Shown here: in pieces, positions 10,404 to 64,000 of the stretch
Layout of the letters: each line of letters starts with the position of its first letter
How positions within the stretch are numbered: position 1 is the stretch's first letter
DNA from: Acidobacteriota bacterium
GTDB lineage: Bacteria > Acidobacteriota > Thermoanaerobaculia > Multivoradales > JAGPDF01
Direction of reading: 5' to 3'
NCBI GenBank assembly: GCA_014584695.1
Contig: JACTMI010000014.1
Span: forward strand, 1-64,000
Length of the DNA: 64,000 nt
Translations under genes and position numbers: made by a program
Notes under the pieces: model-generated
What the model saw: the letters and a program-made list of their open reading frames with translations, nothing else
Told to the model about the DNA's origin: nothing
Databases searched by the model: none

Positions 10404-10531
10404 CGCCTCCTGCGCCCGCCGTGTCCGCTCCGGCGACGGCGCGCGAATCCCACCGGCTGACCCGCGGTGGCGAAGGGGAGGGCCCCCCCACCTGTGCTAC
10501 ATTCCGGACGGTGATGTCGATGGAGGTGCCC

Positions 10532-11848
10532 ATGCGAAATCGAATCGGAATCGGCCTGCTCACGCTCGCCCTGGCGGCGGCGCCGGCGGTCAGCCAGCAG
10601 GCATCGGCCCCGTCCGTGACCGGCGAGACGGGCCTGTTCACCTTGCTCGATGGACAGACGCTGCCCCAGGGCAAGTGGTCCTTCGGCATCTACTACAACA
10701 ACTGGGATCGCCTGGTGGCGCCGATTCCCGGCGGGGGGCTCCTGGCCCCGCTCTCCGACGACTGGGACTACGACTGGAACCGTCTCTCGGCGAGCTTCGG
10801 CTACGGGATCACGGACCGCTTCGAGCTCTCGGTGATGCTGCCCTGGGAGGATCTCTCGGCCTCGGACAACAACCGGCTCGGCTACGTCAACGGCCGGCTG
10901 TTCGAGAACCGCATCGACGGCTCGGGCATCGGCAACGTACGCCTGGGTGGCAAGTACCGCGTCTTCGGCGGGCCGGAAGCCGAACGCTCGATGGCGGTGA
11001 ACGCCTTCATCGAGCTGCCGACCGGCGACGAGGAGGAGGGGATCGTCACCGGGGACACCGGCTGGGGCCTGGGGGCCAACTGGAACCTCGGCACGCGCTG
11101 GGTCCTCGGCGTCGGCTATCGGGATCCAGGGGATGCCGACCGCTTCGACGTCGCCCAGGAGTTCACCGCCGGCGTCGGCTACGTGGCGACGCTCAACGAC
11201 CGCTTCGACTGGATCACCGAGCTCGCGGCGACGCTCTACCAAGGTGGTGACTCGCGGCCCGACGACGCCTTCGACCTGACCACGGGCGGCCGCTACTGGT
11301 TCGGAGACGGCAAGACCTGGGCGGTGAACTTCGGGCTCCGGCTCGAGCTCGCGCAGCTGTCCGACACCGACGAGCACTGCCCGATCGGCGGCCTGCTGGG
11401 CCTCACCTTCATCCCGCGCCTGGCCGGCGGACCGCAACCGCCGCCGCCCCCGCCGCCGCCGCCGCCGCCGCCGCCCCCGCCGCCGCCGCCGCCGCCGGCG
11501 CCGCGCCAGGAGGTGCGGGAGACGATCCACTTCACCCCGAGCAGCGCGCGCCTGTCGAACATCGCCAAGGCCAAGCTCGACGAGGTCGCGCTGCGGATGA
11601 AGCAGGACCCGGCGGCCACCGCCCTGATCGTCGGCTACACCGACAGCACCGGCTCGGCGGCAACCAACCAGCGGATGTCGCAGCAGCGCGCCGAGGCGGC
11701 GCGGCAGTACCTGGTCTCGCGGCACGGCATCGACGCCAGCCGCATCTCGGTCGAGGGCAAGGGCGCGGCCGACCCGGTGGCGCCCAACGACACGGCGGCC
11801 GGCCGCAAGGAGAACCGGCGGGCGGTGATCGTGGTCCAGCTCGGCTGA
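10532..11848 (+). CDS. OmpA-family outer membrane protein with poly-proline linker
   Basis: 438 residues. A signal peptide (1-22) is followed by a region of about 270 residues rich in alternating aromatic strands, typical of an outer-membrane barrel. Then come about 20 consecutive prolines (near residues 303-325) and a C-terminal OmpA/Pal domain (about 330-438) containing IHFTPSSARL, VGYTDSTGS and the NRRAVIVV end that binds peptidoglycan. It should anchor the outer membrane to the cell wall while forming a channel. GGAGGT five bases before ATG 10532 fixes the start. A TACATT at 10498 may be the -10 box. A strong terminator follows. Confidence 0.9.
   Translation: MRNRIGIGLLTLALAAAPAVSQQASAPSVTGETGLFTLLDGQTLPQGKWSFGIYYNNWDRLVAPIPGGGLLAPLSDDWDYDWNRLSASFGYGITDRFELSVMLPWEDLSASDNNRLGYVNGRLFENRIDGSGIGNVRLGGKYRVFGGPEAERSMAVNAFIELPTGDEEEGIVTGDTGWGLGANWNLGTRWVLGVGYRDPGDADRFDVAQEFTAGVGYVATLNDRFDWITELAATLYQGGDSRPDDAFDLTTGGRYWFGDGKTWAVNFGLRLELAQLSDTDEHCPIGGLLGLTFIPRLAGGPQPPPPPPPPPPPPPPPPPPPPAPRQEVRETIHFTPSSARLSNIAKAKLDEVALRMKQDPAATALIVGYTDSTGSAATNQRMSQQRAEAARQYLVSRHGIDASRISVEGKGAADPVAPNDTAAGRKENRRAVIVVQLG
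11437..11512 (+). repeat. CCG/CCC trinucleotide tract encoding poly-proline
   Basis: About 70 bases of almost uninterrupted CCG and CCC codons encode the proline hinge between the barrel and the OmpA domain. The tract could change length by slippage without breaking the frame, because the unit is three bases. Confidence 0.85.
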
Positions 11849-36618: not shown

Positions 36619-36760
36619 CGACTTGGCCCCGGCGGCAGGGCCGGGGCGCCGCGAGAGTCTATCGAATGGGCCGATCGGAGGCCGGCGCGCGGGCAACGCG
36701 GCCGGACTTGCGCTAAGATCCGCCGACTCGTAACGAAGCAGGATTCGTCAGGAGACGCTC

Positions 36761-37840
36761 ATGCGCCGACCCGTCGCTCTGTTCGCAGCCACCGCCGTCG
36801 TCGTCCTCGGCTTCGCGCGGGAGGCGGCCGGCCAGGGCTGAGTCCTCATCCGCCAAACCGCGCCCGTGTTCGGCGCGGCCGTAGATCCGATTCCCGAGCG
36901 CGGGAGCTGGAGTCTCAGCCTCTCGTATCGAGGGCTCGAGTCCGACGTGCACTACAGCGGCAGCGAGCGGCAGGTACACCGCGAGCGGCTCGAGACGTAC
37001 GTGGTCAACACCCAGCAGGCGCTCGATCTCGGGCTCACCTACGCGCTGTCCGACCGCTTCAGCCTGACGCTCGGCATCCCGTACGTCGAGGCGACCTGGG
37101 CGGTGCCGACGCCCATCGCCACGACGCCGCCGGGACCGCGCGCGAAGCAGACCGGCCGGGGCCTGGGCGACATCAGCCTGACCGGGCGCTACTGGCTGCT
37201 CGACCGCGATCGTCCCTACAACGTGTCCGTGGGTCTCGGGGTCAAGGCGCCGACCGGCGAGTACGATCAGACCCAGAGCTATCCGAACATCACCGGCGGC
37301 AACGCGGTGCCGAAGGCGATCGACCAGTCGATCCAGCCGGGCGACGGCGGCTGGGGCATCCTGTTCGACCTCCAGGCGCACCGGCAGCTCGGGACCTTGA
37401 CGCTGTTCGGCTCCGGCAGCTATCTCGCCAATCCGCGGGACACCAACGGCACGCCCTCGATCCTGGTCGGCCTCGGCTTCGGCGGCAACGCGGCGTTCGC
37501 CGCCGAGGGGATCCTGGTCAACTCCGTCCCCGACCAGTACCTGGTGCGCTTGGGTGGCGCCGTGGCCCTCGGGGAGAGCGGCGTCGGCGTCAGCCTCGCG
37601 TACCGCCTCGAGGGGCTGCCGCGCTACGACCTGATCGGCGACAGCCACGGCTGGCGCCGGCCCGGCCGCGAGATGTTCATCGAGCCCGGGCTGGCCTACA
37701 ACCGGGGCGCGAGCACCTGGAGCCTGAACGTGCCGATCGGCTTCTACCGCAATCGGCGGCCCAACCCCTATTCGGGCCGCGAAGGCGACGCGACGTTCCC
37801 CGACTACATCGTCCTGGCCGGCTACGCCCACCGCTTCTGA
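36761..37840 (+). CDS. Outer-membrane beta-barrel protein interrupted by in-frame TGA at codon 27
   Basis: GGAGA before ATG 36761 starts a signal peptide of 26 codons (RRPVALFAATAVVVLGF, ending AAGQG). Codon 27 (36839-36841) is TGA, after which the same frame continues without a stop for 332 codons: VLIRQTAPVFGAAVDPIPERG and then a barrel with alternating hydrophobic strands ending YAHRF, a typical outer-membrane C-terminus. GTG 36866 could start an unexported product but has no ribosome site and would lose the signal. The interruption may be a TGG-to-TGA mutation (pseudogene) or recoding (see the hairpin at 36858). I do not recognise a specific family. Confidence 0.7.
36858..36878 (+). other. 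Hairpin with SECIS-like geometry 16 bases after the in-frame TGA
   Basis: CCGCGCC (36858-36864) pairs with GGCGCGG (36872-36878) around a seven-base loop CGTGTTC. The loop begins 23 bases after the TGA and has G at its second position. As I recall, the bacterial SECIS model allows a loop 16-37 bases from the UGA and a G in the first two loop positions. Short GC hairpins are frequent at this base composition, so chance is a serious alternative. Confidence 0.3.
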
Positions 37841-37882: not shown

Positions 37883-38467
37883 TCAGCGCTTGCGCAGCTC
37901 GACGAGGATCTGCTTGGCGACCGCTTTCAGCGTGTCGAAGACCCCGACGCCGGTCGTCGCCACGGCCTCGAAGGTGGGCTCGCGCTTGAAGTTGAGCGTC
38001 CGGTAGAGCTCGGTGACCGCCACCGCGGTCGGCAGGTCGCGCTTGTTGAACTGCAGCGCGTACGGGATCGTCGCCAAATCGAAGCCGTGCTCGCGCAGGT
38101 TCTCCTCGAGGTTGCGGATCGACTCGATGTTGGCCTCCATCCGCTCCTCCTGCGAGTCGGCGACGAAGACCACGCCGTCGACCCCCTTGAGGATCAGCTT
38201 GCGGCTGGCGTCGTAGAAAACCTGGCCGGGGACGGTGTAGAGGTGGAAGCGGGTGGTGAAGCCGCGGATCGAGCCGAGGTCGAGCGGCAGGAAGTCGAAG
38301 AACAGCGTGCGGTCGGCTTCGGTGGCGAGGGAGATCATCTTGCCCTTCGCCTCCGGCGCCGTCTTGTTGTAGATGTACTGCAGGTTGGTCGTCTTGCCGC
38401 CGAGCCCGGGGCCGTAATAGACGATCTTGCAGTTGATCTCGCGGCTCGCGTAGTTGATGAACGTCAT
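37883..38467 (-). CDS. mglA: MglA-type Ras-like GTPase
   Basis: 194 residues of the MglA family. P-loop GPGLGGKTT (19-27), the MglA-type Walker B region [12 protein letters not shown] (with Thr-Val-Pro in place of the Ras DxxG), and NKRDLP for guanine binding. MglA-GTP marks the leading pole and drives gliding or type IV pilus polarity in myxobacteria. Its GAP partner MglB is directly upstream. No other motility genes are visible here, though a DUF4388 protein in this window belongs to a family linked to MglA systems. Confidence 0.93.
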
Positions 38468-38494: not shown

Positions 38495-38989
38495 CTATTC
38501 GGAGAAGAGGGCGTCGATGTCCTCGTCCGTGATCTCCGAGAATGGGCTCGCCTGCGGCGCCGCCACGGCACCCTTCTCGCCCTTCTGCAGCATGTCTTCG
38601 AAGATGTGCTCCATCTCCTGGTTCGCCTTCTTGACGCGCAGGCGGACCAGGCCGAGCGAGGAGCGCTCGTCGAAGATCACCAGCAGGATGGCGCGCTTGC
38701 CGACGATCGAGATGTGGATGTGATCGCGCTTGCCCTCGTGGAAGAGCACCGAGAACTCCCGCTCGCCGATCAGCTTGGCGAGGCCGTCGGTCGCGGCCAC
38801 GTTGCCGGCGGTGAGCGAGGCGAGGCTGGTGGTGTCGAACTGGTCGAGCTCGCCGGCGGCGGCGATCTGCTGACCGGTCTTGTCGATCAGGAAGATCGCC
38901 CGGGCGTTGGCCTCCTGGCGGAGCTTCTTCAACGCCTGGTCGAGGCGCTGAAACTCCTCCTGGTACAACACCAGCTCGACGGATGGCAT
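38495..38989 (-). CDS. mglB: MglB-type Roadblock/LC7 protein
   Basis: 164 residues. Roadblock/LC7 domain at about 5-125 (AIFLIDKTGQQIAAAGE, SLASLTAGNVAAT, ILLVIFDERSSLGLVRLRV). The C-terminal tail of about 40 residues is acidic, with EDIDALFSE. MglB is the GAP for MglA and defines the rear pole in Myxococcus. mglA starts 27 bases downstream, the same order as in Myxococcus. TAGACT at 39058-39053 (minus) with TTGATG 16 bases further upstream is a possible promoter. Confidence 0.9.
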   Translation of the reverse strand: MPSVELVLYQEEFQRLDQALKKLRQEANARAIFLIDKTGQQIAAAGELDQFDTTSLASLTAGNVAATDGLAKLIGEREFSVLFHEGKRDHIHISIVGKRAILLVIFDERSSLGLVRLRVKKANQEMEHIFEDMLQKGEKGAVAAPQASPFSEITDEDIDALFSE

Positions 38990-49441: not shown

Positions 49442-49452
49442 GGCAGGCCGGT

Positions 49453-49526
49453 CGGGGCGTAGCGCAGCCTGGTAGCGCACCTGCCTTGGGCGCAGGGGGT
49501 CCCCAGTTCAAATCTGGGCGCCCCGA
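49453..49526 (+). tRNA. tRNA-Pro (TGG)
   Basis: Seven-pair acceptor stem (CGGGGCG/CGCCCCG), a D arm, anticodon loop with TGG, and T arm CCCAG-TTCAAAT-CTGGG. The discriminator is A. The 3' CCA is not encoded. It is the first of four tRNAs in a row. Confidence 0.95.
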
Positions 49527-49596
49527 ATTTCCCCCCGACGCCGAAGGTGGAACGCCCCGGGACTCTCTCGGAGAGGCCCGGTCCTTGGATTCGAGG

Positions 49597-49673
49597 CTGC
49601 CTGTAGCTCAGCTGGATAGAGCGGCGGCCTTCTAAGCCGCGGGTCGGGGGTTCGAGTCCCTCCAGGCAGGCCA
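49597..49673 (+). tRNA. tRNA-Arg (TCT)
   Basis: Acceptor CTGCCTG/CAGGCAG, D stem GCTC/GAGC, anticodon stem GCGGC/GCCGC with loop CTTCTAA (anticodon TCT, reading AGA/AGG), T loop TTCGAGT. The 3' CCA is encoded. Second in the cluster. Confidence 0.95.
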
Positions 49674-49743
49674 GTTCCACCTCGTGATGCGCCCGCGACA
49701 CCCGCCGTGGCGGTGCGGGCCGAAAGCTCGGCTGTTCTTTGAC

Positions 49744-49819
49744 GGTGAGTGTAGCTCAATGGTAGAGCACCGGACTGTGGCTCCGGTCGTTGTGGGTTCG
49801 AGTCCCATCACTCACCCCA
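49744..49819 (+). tRNA. tRNA-His (GTG)
   Basis: Acceptor GTGAGTG/CACTCAC with the extra G(-1) at 49744 facing C73, typical of histidine tRNA. Anticodon loop CTGTGGC gives GTG. CCA is encoded at 49817-49819. Confidence 0.95.
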
Positions 49820-49828
49820 GTCTCTCCC

Positions 49829-49905
49829 GCGCCCGTAGCTCAGCTGGATAGAGCGTGAGCCTCCGGAGCTCAAGGTCAGAGGTTCGAATCCTCTCGGGCG
49901 CACCA
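49829..49905 (+). tRNA. tRNA-Arg (CCG)
   Basis: Acceptor GCGCCCG/CGGGCGC, D stem GCTC/GAGC, anticodon stem TGAGC/GCTCA with loop CTCCGGA (anticodon CCG), T loop TTCGAAT. CCA is encoded. Last of the cluster. Confidence 0.95.
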
Positions 49906-62895: not shown

Positions 62896-64000
62896 ATGAG
62901 CGTCGCTTCGCGCGAGGACCCGCGTCGCCGGCTGCCGGCGGTCGACCGCCTGCTCGCCGACCCCCGCCTCGCCGATCTCGAAGGATCTTACGGGCGGGAG
63001 CGGGTGCGCGTCCAGGCGCGGCGGGCGCTCGAGGCCCTGCGCCAGCGCCTGGCGGCCGACCCGGAGCTCGCGGCCGCGGCCGCGGCCGAGGCGCTCCCGC
63101 AGACCATCGCCCAGGAGCTCGAGCGACGCTTCGGCCGGCCGCTCCGCCGCGTGCTCAACGCCACCGGCGTCTTCCTGCACACCAACCTCGGTCGCGCGCC
63201 GCTGCCGGCCGGGGTCGCGGCGCGGCTGCCGGAGCTGGCCACCGCGGCCTGTGATCTCGAGATCGACCTGGCGACCGGCCGGCGCGGCGACCGCGCGGAG
63301 CGGACCTCGCGACTGCTCGCGGAGCTCTCGGGCGCCGAGGCGGGCGTCGCGGTCAACAACGCCGCCGGCGCGCTGGTGCTGGCGCTGGCGACCTTGGCGG
63401 ACGAGGGCGAAGTGATCGTCTCGCGCGGCGAGCTGGTGGAGATCGGCGGCTCGTTCCGCATCCCGGAGATTCTCGTCGCCGCCGGCGCGCGGCTGGTCGA
63501 GGTCGGCACCACGAACCGGACCCACCTCGCCGACTACGAGCGCGCGCTCGGTCCCGCCACCGCCCTGCTGCTCAAGGTCCACGCCAGCAACTACCGGCAG
63601 ACCGGTTTCGTCGCCGAGGTAGCGCCAGCCGAGCTCGCCCAGCTCGCGCACCGGCACGGTCTGCCGCTCCTGGTCGACGAAGGGGCGGGGCTGCTGGCGC
63701 CGCGGCCGGAGGCGCAGCTCGCCGGGCAGCCGAGCTTCCGGGGCCTGCTCGCGGCCGGGTGCGACCTGGTCTGCGGCAGCGGCGACAAGCTGCTGGGCGG
63801 GCCGCAGGCCGGTCTGCTTGCCGGCCGGGCCGACCTCGTCGAGCGCTGCCGGCGCCATCCCCTCTACCGGGCGCTGCGGCTGGACCGCTTGCGGGCGGTG
63901 GCGCTCGACGGCATCCTGCGCCTCCACCTCGGCGCCGCGCCGCTGCCGCTCGACCGCCTCTGGCCGGAGCCGGCCGCGCACCGCGCGCGACTCGAGCGGG
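62896..64000 (+). CDS. selA: L-seryl-tRNA(Sec) selenium transferase (3' end cut by window)
   Basis: 368 codons of about 460 are in the window. It converts Ser-tRNA(Sec) to Sec-tRNA(Sec) with selenophosphate. The N-terminal helical domain is RRRLPAVDRLLADP, then NATGVFLHTNLGRAPL, and the PLP lysine (K298) is in GSGDKLLGGPQAG. The presence of selA implies that this genome uses selenocysteine, with selB and tRNA-Sec expected nearby. The ATG at 62896 follows TAGAAT by 12 bases and has no Shine-Dalgarno, so a very short leader is likely. Confidence 0.95.
   Translation, partial: MSVASREDPRRRLPAVDRLLADPRLADLEGSYGRERVRVQARRALEALRQRLAADPELAAAAAAEALPQTIAQELERRFGRPLRRVLNATGVFLHTNLGRAPLPAGVAARLPELATAACDLEIDLATGRRGDRAERTSRLLAELSGAEAGVAVNNAAGALVLALATLADEGEVIVSRGELVEIGGSFRIPEILVAAGARLVEVGTTNRTHLADYERALGPATALLLKVHASNYRQTGFVAEVAPAELAQLAHRHGLPLLVDEGAGLLAPRPEAQLAGQPSFRGLLAAGCDLVCGSGDKLLGGPQAGLLAGRADLVERCRRHPLYRALRLDRLRAVALDGILRLHLGAAPLPLDRLWPEPAAHRARLER

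Follow-up and report, generated by a model that had tools for sequence, protein, structure and literature searches.

An exported outer-membrane barrel that is almost certainly a selenoprotein, with selenocysteine or cysteine in its N-terminal tail

Of the 119 families in a 2026 inventory of prokaryotic selenoproteins, two are outer-membrane proteins: the MtrB/PioB-type barrel of GSU2204 and a TonB receptor (PMC13188914). The former (NF041027) is an outer-membrane barrel with selenocysteine (Sec) (PMC13188914, PMC9312934), and the latter, a TonB-dependent receptor of the FCYXU type (NF049945), is an outer-membrane selenoprotein family (PMC13188914, PMC12013277). Thiol-oxidoreductase selenoproteins (Trx, Prx, TlpA UGC form) exchange Sec and Cys at one position and have thioredoxin-type neighbours. 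Two kinds of 12-stranded barrel, the COG4313/PF13557 channels (Pput2725, SphA; 4rl8) and the amyloid transporter FapF (5o65/5o67), have structures in which the segment before strand 1 plugs the lumen (PMC4493636, PMC5557850); FapF also carries a long coiled coil and has an amyloid secretion role (PMC5557850), and the Pput2725 paper mentions neither cysteine nor disulfide (PMC4493636).

Here we describe a gene in a 64,000-nt stretch of an Acidobacteriota genome (the window) that, judged from comparative sequence evidence, almost certainly encodes a real selenoprotein of an exported outer-membrane barrel family with Sec or Cys at one site. It shares its compartment with the two listed outer-membrane entries but belongs to a different barrel family from GSU2204 (PF11854), neither of whose models it matches, and it differs from the FCYXU receptor in fold size and motif, with no NCBIfam match between them. 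Unlike the Trx, Prx and TlpA selenoproteins, the barrel has neither a thioredoxin fold nor a UxxC/CxxU motif. The 119-family table contains neither a PF13557/COG4313/FapF-type barrel nor a QGU motif (PMC13188914), and NCBIfam 20.0, a collection that includes many models from that list, returned no selenoprotein match and only FapF, below cut-off. Because neither source gives a match, we call the family new, with the caution that an earlier report is possible: the literature covered, which excluded preprints and most subscription journals, holds no report of Sec in PF13557/COG4313 barrels. The first-pass annotation had thought an exported selenoprotein starting with Sec unusual; exported selenoproteins are already known, and the novelty lies in the family and in the placing of Sec in the tail of an outer-membrane barrel. 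With this family the prokaryotic selenoproteome gains a cross-phylum member in the outer membrane whose fold is not that of thioredoxin. Genes of this kind are easy to overlook, because ordinary gene finding would truncate them at the signal peptide or choose too late a start.

The gene lies on the forward strand and opens at ATG 36761, downstream of a Shine-Dalgarno-like AGGAG (36750-36754) read in the sequence. Its frame runs MRRPVALFAATAVVVLGFAREAAGQG to an in-frame TGA at codon 27 (36839-36841), followed by 332 sense codons that end ...AGYAHRF, a barrel-type C-terminus, and by the true stop TGA at 37838-37840. Direct reading of the sequence thus reproduces the frame as first annotated, with its Shine-Dalgarno, signal peptide, TGA at codon 27 and 332 further codons. 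Codons 1-24 (36761-36832) form a predicted signal peptide, seen in the translation as a hydrophobic N-terminus that ends A/G/S-Q-G/S-[U/C] across the family, and the A-x-A/G rule predicts cleavage after G24, between AAG and QG. The mature selenoprotein (QGU...HRF, 335 residues, 36833-37837) would then carry Sec at about residue 3 (Q-G-Sec), as judged from the sequence; the earlier statement that the TGA falls exactly where the mature protein begins needs this refinement, Sec being near the mature N-terminus and not at residue 1.

An AlphaFold2 model built from a 62-row alignment (pLDDT 92.9, pTM 0.89) shows a 12-stranded barrel from mature residue 26 to the end, preceded by a flexible N-terminal tail of about 22 residues that carries Sec and is modelled with low confidence (pLDDT 48 for residues 1-10, 66 for residues 11-20). 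The window protein scores 29 bits against PF13557 (Phenol_MetA_deg; gathering cut-off 22), and several relatives have no match. The best Foldseek match is FapF (5o67/5o65; 2.6e-16), which is also the only sequence-profile match in the PDB (E 3.4e-13 over 62-255), and the COG4313 channel Pput2725 (4rl8) aligns over 255 residues with Z 24.0 and rmsd 2.7. The new family resembles the COG4313 channels in its 12-stranded barrel, similar length and segment before strand 1, but is only 12% identical to them, and they lack the Sec/Cys tail motif. With FapF, whose barrel is plugged, it shares the 12 strands, and it differs in the coiled coil and amyloid role; against the FapF NCBIfam equivalog the family scores 18-38 of 700 bits (window protein, 18.3), far under the cut-off. 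Because the segment before strand 1 plugs the lumen in these relatives, Sec may sit on, or at the end of, the pore-plugging part, a placement made by homology while model confidence for the tail is low. A second outer-membrane barrel, with a long polyproline linker and an OmpA-like C-terminal domain, is encoded at 10421-11848 (+) of the window; it matches the family profile weakly (E 1e-4), and an in-frame TGA is absent.

We collected homologues from 197 relatives, 84,980 species genomes (80 more loci) and 396 genomes of the phylum. Across 103 distinct rows, the column of codon 27 holds 35 TGA and 68 Cys codons (36 TGT, 32 TGC) and nothing else, with no Trp in any of the 103; beside these rows stand L146, with Cys in a G-G-C context, and L107, a truncated locus left unscored. 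Checking homologues at position 27, as the first-pass annotation had proposed, therefore gave TGA or Cys only. Among the 197 relatives, TGA occupies the same place in both copies of G020 (67% and 44% identity), in G156 (56%), G027 (43%) and G166 (44%), and in G086, and Cys (TGC/TGT) does so in the second copy of G166 and in G008, G016 and G194. The phylum scan (396 genomes) gave 42 strong matches, of which 22 have a single in-frame stop; it is TGA every time, and TAA or TAG in frame occurs in none of the 42. The residues spanning the UGA, Q-G-U-V-x-x-R, are conserved, and the N-terminal part of an 11-row alignment is invariant at Q25, Sec/Cys27 and R31 alone. One planctomycetotal TGA member (L072:4016-4063, stem 6/7) is unique among Sec members in having a Cys directly after Sec (QG-U-C-L).

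TGA members occur in Acidobacteriota, Planctomycetota, Verrucomicrobiota and Gammaproteobacteria, and all Bacteroidota members have Cys; a search of viral contigs gave no relative. The two forms are interspersed, with 11 changes counted on a quick tree, at least 6 of which are forced by supported branches, and G166 and G308 each carry both in one genome. With so many natural Sec/Cys swaps in one simple barrel, the advantage of selenium over sulfur in the periplasm can be addressed directly, as can the question of whether thiols control outer-membrane channels.

These comparisons suggest how the protein could work. The chain would be exported by the Sec pathway, lose its signal peptide and be inserted by BAM as a 12-stranded barrel, steps suggested by the signal peptide and the fold, and Sec, at about residue 3 of the flexible tail before strand 1, would then face the periplasmic side or the barrel mouth, the model leaving its place unsure. 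There Sec, or Cys in relatives, could act as a redox group by pairing, through a mixed selenenyl-sulfide or disulfide, with a TlpA/thioredoxin-like partner in the periplasm or with a thiol or peroxide substrate. In this way it may govern the tail, which would shut the channel as the N-terminal segments of the COG4313 channel and of FapF shut theirs. That the tail is redox-active is, on the strength of Sec/Cys exchange and of neighbouring thioredoxin genes, slightly the better bet, the partner being borrowed from relatives. As a hypothesis we consider doubtful, a selenium redox switch would let a TlpA-like thioredoxin open or close the pore, or let electrons pass the outer membrane, with Sec and Cys swapped repeatedly.

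A TlpA/redoxin-type thioredoxin gene, encoding a hydrophobic N-terminus and CxxC, adjoins 12 of the 103 members. It lies directly downstream at eight loci (with Cys, L006, L007, L008, L048, L151 and L155; with Sec, L142 and L102), an arrangement with five changes on the tree, and divergently upstream of four Cys members (L149, L150, L152, L153); a thioredoxin motif scan found none in the other flank windows that it covered. In the window genome no thioredoxin adjoins the barrel gene, which stands alone between a divergent GlmU-like gene on one side and a convergent MglA-like GTPase gene on the other. The latter, a small GTPase with a weak Arf match (37886-38467, -), itself adjoins a Roadblock/LC7 protein (38498-38989, -).

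The spread of cysteines bears on the chemistry. In 21 of the 35 Sec members the mature protein has no other Cys and hence no internal resolving residue, which makes an internal Se-S bond impossible in them, and a second Cys is present in 43 of 68 Cys forms, mostly at mature position 11-12. As read from the sequences, this pattern would suit a redox group resolved by a partner where Sec or Cys stands alone, and a disulfide within the protein where there are two Cys. The main rival to a redox role is that Sec/Cys serves as a ligand for a metal or metalloid (Cu, Hg, As, Se) and that the barrel handles metal ions. In its favour, the second Cys is frequent among Cys forms, the tail of many Bacteroidota Cys forms combines it with His-Met (e.g., QGCVAVRHMSC), and some of the known selenoproteins have to do with metals (PMC13188914); against this, Sec forms mostly lack both the second Cys and His/Met, and no metal-resistance genes recur in the neighbour clusters scanned. 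We regard metal binding as unlikely.

None of the neighbour clusters examined travels with the Sec forms, and for that reason we claim no operon partner from them. Mainly in Bacteroidota, the recurrent neighbours are DoxX, a PAP2/haloperoxidase-like protein, another barrel-like protein and a 190-aa protein whose function is unknown; in some Acidobacteriota they are two-component regulators. At L060:5096-6121 and similar Cytophagales Cys loci the gene is followed by a barrel-like protein with NCGG near its N-terminus and by a PAP2/haloperoxidase-like protein, and a protein of about 190 aa of unknown function ending in PPPE lies upstream in 22 loci.

The position of the residue also raises the question of lipidation. 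A lipobox has Leu/Val/Ile at -3 and a small residue at -2. Every member has Cys or Sec at the end of the signal peptide, as would be expected were the conserved Cys a lipoprotein cysteine at a signal peptidase II site, with Sec merely substituting for it; the residues ahead of it, however, are [A/G/S]-Q-[G/S] and do not form a lipobox, the product is a barrel, and a need for lipidation alone would give little reason to maintain a SECIS. We consider this reading improbable and reject it.

Alternatively, the UGA could simply terminate a 26-codon leader or upstream ORF, with the barrel restarting at GTG 36866, from which an ORF does exist, or elsewhere. Such a restart would deprive an outer-membrane protein of its signal peptide, and it conflicts with the Cys relatives, which are one continuous chain, and with the conservation of Q-G-U-V-x-x-R across the UGA. 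It was rejected as very improbable.

A hairpin starts 16 nt 3' of the TGA (36858-36878, +), with a 5' arm at 36858-36864 (CCGCGCC), a 3' arm at 36872-36878 (GGCGCGG) and the loop CGTGTTC at 36865-36871 (CGUGUUC in RNA), which has G at position 2; its MFE is -14.4 kcal/mol. The sequence agrees with what had been noted of it, a 7-bp stem with a seven-base loop and G at position two, 16 nt after the TGA. Published limits for bacterial SECIS elements (bSECIS) are a loop of 3-9 nt, a stem of 4-16 bp, a UGA-loop distance of 16-37 nt and an MFE of at most -7.5, with a G at loop position 1 or 2 and G/U after it (PMC13188914), and the window hairpin falls within them (loop 7 nt, stem 7 bp, C-G-U, UGA-loop 23 nt, -14.4). 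No Rfam SECIS family matched at the site. Folding alone is unremarkable for the GC content (z -0.84 for a 45-nt stretch, -1.92 for 27 nt), and because single-sequence folding is this weak a guide in GC-rich DNA, the case for the hairpin rests on its conservation.

In a fixed register, at least 6 of the 7 stem pairs form in 24 of 26 TGA members (mean 6.46) vs none of 60 Cys members. Since the stem overlaps conserved APVxGA codons, we drew synonymous codons anew according to the usage of each gene while holding the protein constant, which gave an expectation of 5.25 pairs (sd 0.16) against the 6.46 observed (z 7.6). Changes on both sides were seen at 6 of 7 stem pairs, and covariation was 0.359 vs 0.171 in shuffled alignments, a level reached in 0 of 500 shuffles; sliding the partner column of the stem alignment by 1-3 destroyed the pairing. 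Once the stem was fixed, nine more TGA members came to light; they have 7, 7, 7, 6, 7, 7, 6, 7 and 5 pairs, and all nine were found by a covariance model (R1) at 39-54 bits. In the 64-kb window R1 scores 52.9 bits at the hairpin site and 15.7 at the next; R1 was trained with the window hairpin included, and all that matters is therefore how far the site stands out from the rest of the window. The divergent TGA members L009 and L098 form 4 of 7 pairs in the fixed register, and L098 folds in a shifted form with a 3-nt loop. The sole Cys member with a clear R1 match (L053:4064-4111, 32.9 bits) belongs to a gammaproteobacterium that has SelA, and it groups with two TGA members; judged by sequence, it is probably a recent Sec-to-Cys change.

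The Sec/Cys column and a hairpin that is conserved with covariation in TGA members bear out the export-linked selenoprotein that had been suggested at first, and overturn the recent nonsense mutation (TGG-to-TGA) then offered as simpler. The outcome named beforehand as refuting the selenoprotein, homologues that have Trp at the site and lack a conserved hairpin, did not occur. A recent TGG-to-TGA or TGC-to-TGA mutation, or a sequencing error, in a broken gene would take a single-base change at a residue that precedes the mature barrel. The homologues refute it: 34 more distinct relatives from four phyla share the TGA, the most distant at about 32-43% identity, no relative has Trp, the frame is otherwise open for 332 codons, and the hairpin covaries in TGA members. 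We give this reading practically no weight.

The genome also has what Sec decoding would need. It encodes a tRNA-Sec with a UCA anticodon, SelB (337.5 bits) and SelA (TIGR00474, 443 bits vs a cut-off of 267.9), and the presence of selABCD together with the covariation suggests that SelB with Sec-tRNA decodes UGA codon 27, helped by the hairpin at 36858-36878. The selenocysteine synthase gene selA had been reported in the window from its letters, which the TIGR00474 score and translation confirm: it occupies contig 62926-64236 (+), with its first ~1.1 kb (62926-64000) inside the window and the remainder past its end. We read it as machinery, not as an operon partner of the barrel gene. An altered code, with Trp inserted at UGA or the codon generally suppressed, has nothing but the open frame in its favour; we reject it as having next to no likelihood, since all non-TGA relatives have Cys, UGA serves as the normal stop of the same gene, tRNA-Sec and SelB are present and the hairpin is specific.

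SelA exceeds its cut-off in 16 of 19 genomes with a TGA member vs 4 of 24 with a Cys member (genomes reached via other loci), and with the relatives added in 23 of 26 TGA rows vs 7 of 28 Cys rows; reduced to independent tree pairs the association is not significant, with only 5 usable pairs and low power. The three TGA genomes with SelA below cut-off (L052, L086, L103) are likely incomplete MAGs. In G194, which has the Cys form only, none of selA, selB, selC and selD exceeds its cut-off.

Going by its sequence, the window genome reads UGA as Sec in at least three genes, the barrel gene among them. Its SelD gene (L160, contig C6) likewise contains an in-frame TGA, located at the classic SGGUAAK site, and its formate-dehydrogenase-like gene (L157, contig C18) reads CNRTUHAPS, each with a hairpin after the UGA. 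A cluster of four tRNA genes (Pro, Arg, His, Arg) lies at 49452-49905 (+) of the window.
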